Made by a program: the position numbers and the translations under genes. A stretch of 64,000 nt of DNA from Psychromonas antarctica (GTDB lineage: Bacteria; Pseudomonadota; Gammaproteobacteria; Enterobacterales; Psychromonadaceae), in NCBI RefSeq assembly GCF_022267535.1, contig NZ_JAHNZV010000007.1, forward strand, positions 1 to 64,000, written 5' to 3'. Below, in pieces: positions 5,817-64,000 of the stretch. Numbering within the stretch: the first letter of the stretch is position 1; each line of letters begins with the position of its first letter. Below the pieces are notes generated by a model, which was given only the letters and a program-made list of their open reading frames with translations, was not told where the DNA came from and made no database searches.

Positions 5817-7448
5817 ATGCATAAAAACAAAATAACTCAGGCACTGCTTTTAGCTGCCGGAATTTCGCTTGTCGCTACATCATTTTCAACCATGGCGGCT
5901 AACGTGCCTGCCGGCGTTAAATTAGCGGCTAAACAAGAGTTAGTGCGTGGTAACGGAACTGAAGTTGCTTCACTTGACCCACATAAAACGGAAGGTGTGC
6001 CCGAGTCTCATGTTATTCGCGATCTTTTAGAAGGATTGGTTAATCAGGATGCTGAGGGGAATACTATTCCAGGTGTCGCTGAACGTTGGGAAACAACGGA
6101 TAATAAAACTTTTACCTTCTATCTACGTAAAGATGCGAAGTGGTCAAATGGTGATCCTGTGACTGCTGATGATTTTGTTTATAGTTTCCAACGTGTCGTC
6201 GATCCTGCAACCGCTTCACCTTATTCTTGGTATCTTGAAATGACCACCATGACTAATGCTGCAGATATTATTGCCGGGAAAAAAGATAAATCAACATTAG
6301 GTGTTAAAGCAATTGATGCGCATACCTTTCAGGTGCATTTGGAAAACGCTGTTCCTTATTTTGTGATGATGATGGGTCATACGACCGTTAAACCTGTGCA
6401 TAAAGCAACGGTCGAAAAATTTGGCGATCAATGGACTAAACCTGAAAATTTTGTAGGTAATGGCGCATTTGTGGTTAGTAATTGGGTGGTCAATGAGCGT
6501 ATTGAAATGACGCCCAACAAATACTACTGGGATAATGCACATACAGTATTAACTAAAGTCACTTTCCTACCGATTGAAAATCAAGTCGCTGAAATGAACC
6601 GTTTCCTTTCAGGCGAACTTGATTTTACTTATGAAATCTCTAATGAGCACTTTAGAAGTCTAAAGAAAGAACATCCTGAATCTCTACAGGTGAAAGGTAA
6701 CCTTTGTACTTATTATTATAATTTTAATACCCATAAAAAGCCGTTTGATGATGTGCGTGTACGTAAAGCGATCTCTTATGCTATTGACCGCCATATTGTT
6801 ACTGATGCACTACTTGGTCAAGGGCAAAAACCGGCTTATTTCTTAACACCTGAAATTATTGCTGGTTTTAGTCCAACGCTTCCAGCCTACGGTAAACTAA
6901 CTCAAAAAGAGCGTAATGCAAAAGCGAAAGAGCTATTAGCTGAAGCGGGCTACAATAAATCTAATCCACTTAAATTCAGCTTGTTATATAATACTAGCGA
7001 AAACCATAAGAAGCTTGCTGTCGCGATCGCTTCGATGTGGAAAAAAACCTTAGGTGTTGACGTGACGTTGGAAAACCAAGAGTGGAAAACTTACCTAGAA
7101 ACTAAAAAACAGGGTAATTTCGAAGCATCTCGCGCTGGCTGGTGTGGTGATTACAATGAGCCTTCAACCTTTACTTCGTTAATGGAAGGCAGCAATACAA
7201 CCGGTGGTATCCATTATCAAAGTGCGGCATACGATGAGTTAATTAAGCGTGGTATCGAAACAACGTCAGCAAAAGAACGCACTGAGTTATATTACGCGCA
7301 GGAAGCTCTACTGGCTAAAGACATGCCTATTGCACCTATTTATCAGTATGTGATGGCGCGTCTAGTTAATCCTCATGTAGGCGGCTATGCAGCCAACAAT
7401 GCTGAAGATAAGCTTTATTCAAAAGATATGTATATTATCGCTGAATAA
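5817..7448 (+). CDS. oppA: Oligopeptide ABC transporter, periplasmic binding protein
   Basis: Periplasmic solute-binding protein (SBP_bac_5 family) that captures oligopeptides for OppBCDF. The 543 residues begin with a signal peptide: basic HKNK, a hydrophobic core, and a cleavage site near FSTMAA-NVPAG (about residue 28). The family segments LVRGNGTEVASLDPHKTEG, KWSNGDPVTADDFVYSFQR and WCGDYNEPSTF are visible. The start is set at 5817 because AGGAA lies 8 nt upstream. An in-frame ATG at 5796 has no ribosome site. First gene of oppABCDF. A terminator-like hairpin after it suggests extra monocistronic oppA transcript, as expected for the abundant binding protein. Confidence 0.95.
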   Translation: MHKNKITQALLLAAGISLVATSFSTMAANVPAGVKLAAKQELVRGNGTEVASLDPHKTEGVPESHVIRDLLEGLVNQDAEGNTIPGVAERWETTDNKTFTFYLRKDAKWSNGDPVTADDFVYSFQRVVDPATASPYSWYLEMTTMTNAADIIAGKKDKSTLGVKAIDAHTFQVHLENAVPYFVMMMGHTTVKPVHKATVEKFGDQWTKPENFVGNGAFVVSNWVVNERIEMTPNKYYWDNAHTVLTKVTFLPIENQVAEMNRFLSGELDFTYEISNEHFRSLKKEHPESLQVKGNLCTYYYNFNTHKKPFDDVRVRKAISYAIDRHIVTDALLGQGQKPAYFLTPEIIAGFSPTLPAYGKLTQKERNAKAKELLAEAGYNKSNPLKFSLLYNTSENHKKLAVAIASMWKKTLGVDVTLENQEWKTYLETKKQGNFEASRAGWCGDYNEPSTFTSLMEGSNTTGGIHYQSAAYDELIKRGIETTSAKERTELYYAQEALLAKDMPIAPIYQYVMARLVNPHVGGYAANNAEDKLYSKDMYIIAE

Positions 7449-7465
7449 AGTGTTGATCTGCTGAT

Positions 7466-7491
7466 AAGAGGCTCTTGTAGCCTCTTTTTTT
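7466..7491 (+). terminator. Intra-operon terminator/attenuating hairpin between oppA and oppB
   Basis: AAGAGGCT/AGCCTCTT stem, CTTGT loop and a 7-8 T run, 17 nt after the oppA stop. Its position inside a same-strand operon suggests partial termination. Confidence 0.75.
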
Positions 7492-7513
7492 GTTTAACTA
7501 AGTTGAGTTAATT

Positions 7514-8434
7514 ATGTTTAAATTCATCCTCAAGAGAGTCATTGAAGCTATTCCGACCTTGCTAATATTGATTACTATCTCTTTCTTTTTAATGCGTTTT
7601 GCCCCAGGCAGCCCGTTCTCCAGTGAGCGCACCTTGCCTCCTCAGGTCATGCAAAATATTAATGCCAAATATGGCCTTGATAAACCCGTCATGGAGCAAT
7701 ACACCACCTACCTTGTTAATGTCTTACAAGGTGACTTAGGTCCCTCGTTTAAATACAAAGACTATACGGTTAATGAACTGGTGGCAGCAGCTTTACCCGT
7801 TTCTGCAAAAATCGGTTCGGTGGCGTTTCTCTTTGCGGTATTTTTTGGTGTGTCGATTGGCACGATCGCTGCGTTACGACAAAATAGCTGGCTTGATTAC
7901 AGTGTGATGTCGACGGCCATGTTGGGGATTGTAATGCCCTCGTTTGTTTTAGCACCGGTATTGATTTATATCTTTTCTATTCATTTAGGCTGGTTTCCTG
8001 CAGGTGGTTGGCTAGACGGATCTGCTCAATATATGGTATTACCCGTATTGGGGATGTCGATGATGTATGTCGCCACTTTTGCGCGTATTACCCGTGGCAG
8101 TATGATTGAAACACTTAATAGTAACTTTATTCGCACGGCGCGAGCCAAAGGGTTGAGCTTTCCTTATATTGTTTTACACCATGCGTTGAAACCAGCAATG
8201 TTGCCAGTTGTTTCTTATATGGGGCCTGCTTTTGTCGGCATTATTACTGGTTCAGTAGTGATTGAAACCATTTTTGGTTTACCGGGTATCGGTAAGCTAT
8301 TTGTGAATGCGGCGTTTAATCGCGACTATTCATTAGTGATGGGGGTAACCATCCTTATCGGTTTATTGTTCATCCTATTTAATGCCATCGTGGATATTCT
8401 TCTCGCTTATGTCGATCCTAAAATTCGCTTTTAA
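7514..8434 (+). CDS. oppB: Oligopeptide ABC transporter permease OppB
   Basis: Inner-membrane permease of the peptide/nickel type, the OppC partner. The 306 residues have an N-terminal transmembrane helix (about 10-30), a periplasmic loop, then five more hydrophobic segments. The BPD_transp_1 coupling motif is visible as FIRTARAKGLSFPYIVLHHALKPA (EAA-type loop). Length equals E. coli OppB (306). It follows the oppA terminator hairpin and precedes oppC by 12 nt. Confidence 0.96.
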   Translation: MFKFILKRVIEAIPTLLILITISFFLMRFAPGSPFSSERTLPPQVMQNINAKYGLDKPVMEQYTTYLVNVLQGDLGPSFKYKDYTVNELVAAALPVSAKIGSVAFLFAVFFGVSIGTIAALRQNSWLDYSVMSTAMLGIVMPSFVLAPVLIYIFSIHLGWFPAGGWLDGSAQYMVLPVLGMSMMYVATFARITRGSMIETLNSNFIRTARAKGLSFPYIVLHHALKPAMLPVVSYMGPAFVGIITGSVVIETIFGLPGIGKLFVNAAFNRDYSLVMGVTILIGLLFILFNAIVDILLAYVDPKIRF

Positions 8435-61041: not shown

Positions 61042-62487
61042 ATGTCTTTCGATCAAGTTTGTGAACGTTTTTTAGCTCCATCACAATTAAAAATTGGCGA
61101 TTTAGAATTGCAGTTAGGACGTATTTGTACACCACAAATAGATTATGCCGATTTTTATTTTCAAGCTAGTCGCCATGAGTCTTGGTTGTTAGAAGACGGT
61201 ATCGTTAAAGATGGCAGTTATAATATTGAAAAAGGGGTCGGGATTCGTGCTGTTTCAGGTGAAAAAACGGGGTTCGCCTATTCCGATCAGATCTCAGCTA
61301 AAGCGATTAGTGAAGCCGCAAATGCAGCTCGGAGCATTGCGCAAAGTGGTCAACAAGGCAAGGTTAAATTGCTTTTGCCTAAAAAACCAGTGCTAATTTA
61401 TGGTTCTTCAGATCCGCTTAATAGCTTACCGCAAGACAGTAAAATAGCCCTTTTAAAACAAATAGATATTTTTGCAAGAGCACTTGATCCTATGGTCTGC
61501 GAGGTGACCGTCTCATTAAATGCGATTTATGAAGAGATATTAGTTGCCGCTAGTGATGGTACATTGGCGACAGATATTCGTCCGCTGGTTCGCTTAAGCT
61601 GCTCAGTATTAATCGAAAAAAAGGGCAAACGCGAACGTGGTAGTGCAGGTGGTGGTGGTCGCTTTGACTTGAATTATTTTACAGATACCGTTGACGGTGA
61701 AGCGAAGGCTTTTTCTTATGCTCGAGAAGCGGTACGGCAAGCGCTTGTCAATATTGATGCGATTGACGCGCCTGCTGGATCTATGCCCGTTATCCTTGGC
61801 GCAGGATGGCCGGGTGTGTTATTGCATGAGGCGGTTGGTCATGGATTAGAGGGAGACTTCAATCGTAAAGGCTCATCTGCCTATTCAGGTCGTATCGGTC
61901 AGCAAGTAGCATCCAAACACTGCACCATTATCGACGATGGTTCTATTAAAGATCGTCGCGGCTCGCTCACTATCGACGATGAAGGCACCCCCGGACAGTC
62001 TAATGTGCTAATTGAAAAGGGGGTTTTAAAAGGTTATATGCAAGATAAGCTCAATGCACGCTTAATGGGCGTGTCGCCAACGGGTAATGGTCGTCGGGAA
62101 TCTTATGCTCATCTGCCAATGCCTCGTATGACCAATACTTTTATGCTCAATGGTGACTGTGAGCATGAGGAGTTAATCGCGAGTGTTAAAAAAGGTATTT
62201 ATGCACCTAACTTTGGTGGCGGTCAGGTGGATATTACCTCTGGGAAGTTTGTATTCTCGGCCTCTGAAGCTTACCTTATTGAGAATGGCAAAGTCACTGC
62301 ACCGATTAAAGGTGCTACATTAATAGGTAATGGCTTTGATGCTATGCAACAGATCTCAATGGTTGCTAACAATATGTGTCTTGATCCTGGTGTTGGTGTA
62401 TGTGGTAAGGAAGGACAAAGTGTACCTGTTGGTGTCGGGCAGCCTTCTTTGAAAATAGATAATTTAACGGTGGGTGGTACTCACTAA
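61042..62487 (+). CDS. tldD: Metalloprotease TldD
   Basis: Zinc protease subunit that pairs with TldE/PmbA, removing unstructured peptides such as the microcin B17 leader and CcdA. The 481 residues show H262-E263 and H267 in [27 protein letters not shown], and [10 protein letters not shown]. Length equals E. coli TldD (481). AAGGAAA lies upstream. The pmbA partner is not in this window, as usual. Last gene of the mre-tldD run, followed by a hairpin at 62517-62534. Confidence 0.97.
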
Positions 62488-62948: not shown

Positions 62949-62977
62949 AAAAAAAGTGTCTAATTAGACACTTTTTT
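62949..62977 (-). terminator. Terminator of the PUD lipoprotein gene (bidirectional)
   Basis: Near-perfect palindrome with core GTGTCTAATTAGACAC flanked by A7 and T6. 35 nt past the lipoprotein stop on the minus strand. Confidence 0.88.
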
Positions 62978-63012: not shown

Positions 63013-63486
63013 TTAGTTTGCAGGATCTGCTTTTAGCTCAGCACTGCCTTCAGTAGTAAATACATCTACACCAAATTTTGCACGTGAGTAAGAGTGATCA
63101 AGGCCACCTAAGTCTTTTGAATTGCCCATATGAACAATAAATTTGAACTCTTTCCAGTCATCACCTTTTAGAGGAACAACATAGTATGCGCCGTATTTTT
63201 CAGAAACGCCTGTTAGAGGAAATGCATCGTACCAACTTGTTGCTTCTTTGATATCGCCAGACCAAAGGTGTAGGCCCCAATCTGTATATTCGTTATCAGC
63301 ACGTTTGTAGTAGATTACCGCTTCACTTGGAGCTGGTGTGTATAGGCCAGGAATTGTGCTCGCAGAAGTGCCTTCATCCATAACAACGGCTTCTGTTGCT
63401 GCAGCTGACTCGTCTGCTACTGGAGTTGAAGTACAGCCTACTACCGCAACTGCTGCAAATGCTGCTAGTAAATGTCTAAATTTCAT
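63013..63486 (-). CDS. Lipoprotein with a stand-alone pullulanase-associated domain (PUD/CBM41-like)
   Basis: A 157-residue predicted lipoprotein. The signal MKFRHLLAAFAAVAVVGC ends in lipobox VVGC (C18). A short acidic/Ala linker (19-50) leads to a single domain (about 56-155) reading VIYYKRADNEYTDWGLHLWSGD, ATSWYDAFPLTG, and EFKFIVHMGNSKDLGG, which I recognise as the pullulanase-associated/starch-binding (CBM41-like) domain. No catalytic domain follows. AAGGA is about 7 nt upstream of the ATG. Monocistronic; no amylase or maltose gene nearby. Confidence 0.75.
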   Translation of the reverse strand: MKFRHLLAAFAAVAVVGCTSTPVADESAAATEAVVMDEGTSASTIPGLYTPAPSEAVIYYKRADNEYTDWGLHLWSGDIKEATSWYDAFPLTGVSEKYGAYYVVPLKGDDWKEFKFIVHMGNSKDLGGLDHSYSRAKFGVDVFTTEGSAELKADPAN

Positions 63487-64000
63487 AACATATCCTTATT
63501 TTTTTGTTTATTGTTTTGTTTATAGTTTTCTTTTCGTTCAAAGAATTTAGAATAATAGTCTGCTTATATTTAGTAAGCATCCTGCCTGCCTAACATTCGA
63601 TAATTTACCTAAGTTGATAAACCATATATTAGTATTAGTTTGCTTAGGTCCGTCTAGGATAATTCAAACTATCATTCGATACAAAGCAACAGTGATTAAT
63701 TTTTTGTAAAGAGTGATCAACGATTAGTTTTTGATACATAATACCTAATAAATCGTCTATATTTGAGCGGGTTAGCAGATTATTTTTATACACATTATTT
63801 AAACCTTGTGCCACAAGAAAAAAATTAAATATTGCATAATGCGGAATCGGCTTAAGCATTAATTTATAAGCGGAAGATTTGTTGTTATGGCTATTCCCTA
63901 GGCTGATTCAAAGCAAATTTAGGGGGCACAGTGAAATGCAGAATGTTCAGCACTTTTAAGTGCTATAACACGGCACAGGATATTTGGCCGTAAGAAAGCT
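63487..64000. other. End of window, upstream of the PUD lipoprotein gene
   Basis: About 510 AT-rich bases, including the lipoprotein promoter region. A 16-bp palindrome AGCACTTTTAAGTGCT is at 63949-63964. One weak ORF is listed separately. Confidence 0.4.
63644..63859 (-). CDS. Hypothetical short ORF, doubtful
   Basis: 71 codons, starting MLKPIPHYAIFNFFLV, with no recognised family. No good ribosome site upstream (sequence is AATTA). It could be a real small protein, a truncated gene or chance; listed because nothing else occupies this stretch. Confidence 0.2.
   Translation of the reverse strand: MLKPIPHYAIFNFFLVAQGLNNVYKNNLLTRSNIDDLLGIMYQKLIVDHSLQKINHCCFVSNDSLNYPRRT

Follow-up and report, generated by a model that had tools for sequence, protein, structure and literature searches.

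A free-standing PUD/CBM41 lipoprotein in Psychromonas as a probable alpha-glucan-binding accessory of maltodextrin and starch use

What might a pullulanase-associated domain (PUD, or CBM41) do in a protein that contains no other domain? The question is raised by a small gene near the end of the window, the 64,000-nucleotide stretch of Psychromonas antarctica contig NZ_JAHNZV010000007.1 that was analysed as a whole. The original prediction described the product as a lipoprotein consisting of a single PUD, pointed out that such domains normally head pullulanases, and proposed that it could bind or sense glucan at the cell surface or act as a scaffold for an unlinked amylase. We consider it probable that the protein is a non-catalytic, membrane-anchored accessory of maltodextrin or starch use that binds alpha-glucan; its sugar binding, its anchoring in the outer membrane, the face on which it stands and its benefit for uptake are properties that we infer.

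The coordinates of the gene and of its parts are collected in Table 1. The lipobox, V-V-G-C18, was read by eye; one is present at the start of all seven orthologues, with an invariant G17-C18 pair and with T or S in the position following the cysteine (+2) in each of them. A T or S at +2 predicts location in the outer membrane, not on which of its faces. The match to the Pfam PUD family, PF03714, scores 73.1 bits over a cut-off of 25 and spans positions 2-94 of the 97 in the profile, which excludes the absence of a PUD profile match, and no other Pfam family, including the GH13 catalytic domain, was found at E ≤ 1. With the lipobox read by eye and the one Pfam match, the description of the protein as a single-PUD lipoprotein is confirmed. 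The MalM family (PF07148) gave no match with the window protein, and the two NCBIfam matches are both far under their cut-offs.

Table 1. Features in and around the PUD lipoprotein gene (window positions) and, in the last four rows, the single-PUD genes of family f134 (positions in the named locus)
Feature	Position	Strand	Basis
CDS of the 157-aa PUD lipoprotein, ATG start, stop codon included	63013..63486	minus	ORF list and Pfam
Signal peptide, aa 1-17, up to lipobox VVG/C	63436..63486	minus	by eye; same lipobox pattern in the six other orthologues
Cys18 codon, predicted lipidation site, +2 = Thr	63433..63435	minus	Cys invariant in seven orthologues; lipidation putative
Linker, aa 19-55, presumed flexible	63322..63432	minus	length and sequence vary in orthologue alignment
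PUD/CBM41 domain, aa 56-150	63037..63321	minus	Pfam PF03714, E 3.5e-20; same span from genome search
AAGGA, ribosome-binding-site-like, upstream of the PUD gene	63493..63497	minus	sequence by eye
Hairpin, terminator-like, in the gap that separates the PUD gene from the convergent tldD-like gene	62950..62977		terminator scan, plus-strand call
tldD-like gene, convergent neighbour without evident functional link	61042..62487	plus	ORF list, neighbour reading
Single-PUD gene after malG, L114	8064-8513		
Single-PUD gene after malG, L146	8844-9275		
Single-PUD gene after malG, L163	about 7678-8088		
Single-PUD gene after malG, L164	about 7370-7792		

Among the sequences of the PDB, the best match of the protein is 2j44, the CBM41 pair of an amylopullulanase (E = 8e-7), and a profile built from the seven orthologues also matches 2j71, a CBM41 of Thermotoga maritima (E = 0.004). 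The AlphaFold models are of low confidence, with a pLDDT of 54 for the full-length protein and of 52 for the trimmed domain. The full-length model matched only two PDB structures at E ≤ 0.001, 2j71 and 2j72, both from the CBM41 of T. maritima pullulanase (TM-score 0.67-0.68 by target length), and the next match was Klebsiella PulA; in this weak model, no fold other than the immunoglobulin-like beta-sandwich of a PUD was seen. Residues Y60, R62, Y67, W70, H73, W75, W85, H119 and D130, among others, are conserved in all seven lipoproteins and are also the commonest residues at these positions in 71 other PUDs, from which the lipoproteins depart at aa 59, 69 (six of the seven) and 88. Compared with the PUD/CBM41 of the T. 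maritima (2j71) and Klebsiella (6j33) PulA proteins, the window protein has the same domain, with the strongly conserved positions kept, but has it alone behind a lipobox and linker and lacks a catalytic or any further domain.

Orthologues are present in seven of the 24 genomes of the genus Psychromonas, the six others being 68-85% identical to the window protein, and the sole relative found in genome contigs (L026, 85% identity) comes from a Psychromonas MAG. PUDs occur in 110 of the 394 genomes of the order, and among the PUD matches listed the only frames shorter than 460 aa are the seven of Psychromonas. The length of a frame tells only roughly whether its PUD stands alone: two of the f134 single-PUD genes described below (in G1149 and G1176) lie inside frames of 527 and 812 aa, where nothing but a reading of the sequence revealed them, and because such genes can hide in long frames, the number of free-standing PUDs given here is a minimum. 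A sample of the class (n = 369) contained three genomes that matched the protein query and two that matched in the PUD family search, the source genome of the window being found by both; a weak match to the protein query (G571, E = 7.5e-4, in a 378-aa frame) did not come up when that sample was searched with the PUD family. A sample of the phylum (n = 398) contained PUDs in 24 genomes.

Judged by its substitution pattern, the PUD lipoprotein gene is a real gene under purifying selection. In the PUD part, dN (0.045-0.252) is far lower than dS (0.47 to saturation) in all 21 pairs of orthologues, and the signal peptide and linker together have a higher dN than the PUD in 20 of these pairs. A tree of 82 PUDs, which is based on 104 columns and is weak in its deeper forks, groups the seven lipoproteins in one clade (support 100/100) and five pullulanase-type PUDs of the genus in a clade of their own (100/98), apart from the lipoproteins; three further PUDs from large ORFs of the genus are placed elsewhere. 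On these separate clades we set aside recent descent from the resident pullulanase, a rejection tempered by the weak deep forks and by the three PUDs placed elsewhere. A phage or viral origin was also rejected: no phage match was obtained at E ≤ 1e-3, and none of the 28 viral_contigs stretches with a pattern match encodes a relative. Six plasmid records were matched, all at less than 60% identity, and the best of these, the one opened (L174, unannotated), looks by eye like a lipoprotein amylopullulanase of 2018 aa.

The genome from which the window comes also encodes, on contig C68, a 1301-aa pullulanase that passes the NCBIfam cut-off for TIGR02103 (pullulanase-type alpha-1,6-glucosidase). 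This enzyme resembles the window protein in its lipobox (by eye) and N-terminal PUD and differs in having N2, CBM48 and catalytic/pullulanase C-terminal regions and a PUD that belongs to another clade. On contig C246, malE-malF-malG, malT and malK were recognised by similarity, and the genome contains three matches to LamB and two to MalM. Co-occurrence was counted among the 24 genomes of the genus: a large PUD ORF is present in all seven that carry the lipoprotein and in three of the 17 others (Fisher 3.5e-4, kinship ignored), or in six of six and three of 15 when only genomes that are at least 90% complete are considered (p 1.5e-3). These large ORFs were profiled as pullulanases in G000 and G022 only, and the PUD matches of those in G009 (27.7 bits) and G023 (25.5 bits) barely exceed the cut-off of 25. 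Similarly, LamB was found in 7/7 carriers versus 6/17 others (Fisher 0.006), MalM in 6/7 versus 4/17 (0.009) and a MalT-like match at E < 1e-100 in 7/7 versus 4/17 (9.5e-4), in each case with kinship ignored; since the traits are independent neither of one another nor of descent, all of the Fisher values are descriptive. The MalT-like match is in two pieces in G001 and has an inner stop in G013. In G022, which is a single contig, the tldD-like gene, malQ and two lamB genes are each spread over two adjacent frames (L069, L106), perhaps through sequencing errors.

No neighbour common to the seven genomes was found among the neighbouring ORFs that were read, and in six of them the nearest genes, some of which were profiled, seem unrelated to starch. 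A tldD-like gene lies near the PUD lipoprotein gene in G000, G001 and G022, a gene for a GH18-domain lipoprotein adjoins it in G015 and G023, and the genes in G009 are mixed. The convergent neighbour in the window is putatively tldD-like. The hairpin between the two genes is a perfect 28-base palindrome of 12 pairs, with A and T runs; being palindromic (by eye), it may serve both strands, and it is likely a two-way terminator. The terminator scan found three such sites in the region, versus a shuffle mean of 1.0. In G016, the PUD gene is located 261 bp after malQ and runs in the same direction; malP is next, and malT diverges. Cotranscription with malQ is doubtful because the gap after malQ contains an inverted repeat, seen by eye, at which the terminator scan makes no call.

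Upstream of the seven PUD genes, no MalT-box-like site within two mismatches of the E. coli consensus was found; the test is weak, since only four of 11 mal/pul control regions were positive (malK of G000, with a single mismatch, malE and malK of G023, and malE of G003). The best CRP-like sites upstream of the seven genes were reached by at least 48 of 300 shuffles in every case, compared with 2 of 300 for the site of pulA in G000. Given the lack of a MalT-box-like or convincing CRP-like site, co-regulation with the mal genes is not supported.

The strongest pointer to the role of a single-PUD protein comes from the distant family f134, in a sample of which PUDs were found in 14 of 120 genomes. 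Four of them (G967, G1171, G1149 and G1176) encode proteins that, like the window protein, contain nothing besides a signal peptide and a single PUD, but differ from it in having a Sec-type signal without a lipobox (by eye), in forming a clade of their own in the PUD tree (100/100), separate from the Psychromonas lipoproteins, and in their location in mal clusters. In all four genomes the gene directly follows malG in the order malK-malE-malF-malG, MalG having been identified with a partial query. The next gene encodes a GH13 amylase in two of the four (G967 and, by similarity, G1171), whereas G1149 has an amylase-like match upstream of malK and G1176 only a short one downstream. Because the two single-PUD clades are separate, these clusters bear on the window gene only by analogy.

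The view that PUDs usually head pullulanases holds insofar as most were found in large proteins, but these are not all such enzymes, some being GGDEF-EAL or coiled-coil membrane proteins. At four loci (L029, L030, L027 and L123, from G130, G143, G042 and G1176, respectively) the PUD precedes GGDEF and EAL domains and is apparently extracytoplasmic, according to membrane segments seen by eye; three of these proteins are cut by the end of the locus and that of L123 is whole. A protein with this architecture is a candidate alpha-glucan-responsive c-di-GMP enzyme. In genus g10, the proteins encoded at L115:4645-6099 and L116:3403-4776 contain a PUD that, as judged by eye, is followed by a coiled coil and, at the C-terminus, a membrane segment, with no other Pfam domain, and further frames of 461-500 aa carry a PUD as well. 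Another PUD outside pullulanases precedes the GH13 domain of an alpha-amylase at L019 (G039), whose start resembles a lipobox by eye.

In the mechanism that we propose, the signal peptide would be cut ahead of Cys18, and the lipid attached to this residue would hold the protein in the outer membrane. The linker, of 26-37 residues, would let the PUD/CBM41 domain reach out and grip alpha-1,4-glucan chains (starch, glycogen or maltodextrin) near the pullulanase and LamB; the gripped chains would be digested and then taken up by MalEFGK. One paper describes alpha-glucan whose links are mainly alpha-1,4 as the ligand of CBM41 (PMC2582482). Another reports that removal of CBM41 did not lower the specific activity of the Bacillus acidopullulyticus pullulanase (PMC4712565), so that this module need not matter much. 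The roles proposed in the original prediction are supported in part. For the window protein, glucan binding gains indirect backing from the conserved residues, from the co-occurrence with LamB, MalT and large PUD ORFs, and from the mal neighbours in G016 and the second clade, whereas the proposed sensing does not, as the protein has no signalling domain. The suggested role as a scaffold for an unlinked amylase was rejected: the protein has one domain and, according to Pfam, no second, and the resident pullulanase has a lipobox and PUD of its own.

Two alternative readings differ in where the domain would stand. That it faces the periplasm, buffering maltodextrins that arrive via LamB, strikes us as close to an even bet. 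Lipoproteins without a known surface-export signal stay by default in the inner leaflet of the outer membrane, and we know of no surface signal for a lipoprotein as short as this one; T or S at +2 in all seven orthologues, with no such signal, implies the default position and favours the periplasmic side. The second-clade proteins, with plain Sec signals (by eye) and genes directly after malG, point the same way, but the pullulanases of these bacteria that combine a lipobox with a PUD are expected to act outside the cell. The alternative placement, with the domain outside the cell and tethering starch or glycogen for the pullulanase, is a tentative option; it fits the large PUD ORF in every carrier genome and the usual work of PUDs on polymeric substrate outside the cell, and is opposed by the same lack of a known surface signal.

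Two further readings would give the protein a different role or none. A sensor that reports alpha-glucan to a signalling partner is improbable: it has a precedent in the N-terminal PUDs of the GGDEF-EAL proteins, but the lipoprotein contains no other domain and none of the neighbouring genes read, which might have encoded the partner, recurs in all seven genomes. Still more remote, to the point of being very improbable, is a functionless leftover N-terminus of a decayed pullulanase, which the resemblance to the lipobox-linker-PUD front of a lipoprotein pullulanase might suggest; the ORF is open in seven genomes, whose lipoproteins form one fully supported clade distinct from that of the five clustered pullulanase-type PUDs of the genus, and dN in the PUD is far below dS, a pattern on which a pseudogene was rejected.

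An accessory that binds alpha-glucan has counterparts in known systems, from which the window protein nevertheless differs. MalM, like it, is a non-enzymatic envelope protein, placed in the maltose system, but belongs to a different family. The SusE/F and SGBP-type surface glycan-binding lipoproteins of Bacteroidota are likewise lipoproteins made of glycan-binding domains; the window protein has a single domain, from another family, and no Sus-like genes were noticed among the neighbouring ORFs read. The PUD domain and lipoproteins built of binding domains are already known, and what is new is a one-PUD lipoprotein that a genus retains alongside large PUD ORFs; a literature search of partial coverage found no paper on a free-standing CBM41 lipoprotein.

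We tentatively suggest, as a possibility and no firmer, that on two or more occasions in Gammaproteobacteria PUD/CBM41 has turned into an alpha-glucan receptor that stands alone, held by a lipid in Psychromonas and soluble in the malK-malE-malF-malG clusters of family f134. Such receptors may add to maltodextrin uptake a capture step without catalysis that has gone unrecognised, and it is equally tentative that the same module may serve as the outer sensor of c-di-GMP enzymes. For annotation, the lesson is that a PUD match does not equal a pullulanase. Should single-PUD proteins prove to bind maltodextrin within the envelope, the textbook maltose/maltodextrin pathway would gain an extra, non-enzymatic part in some lineages.
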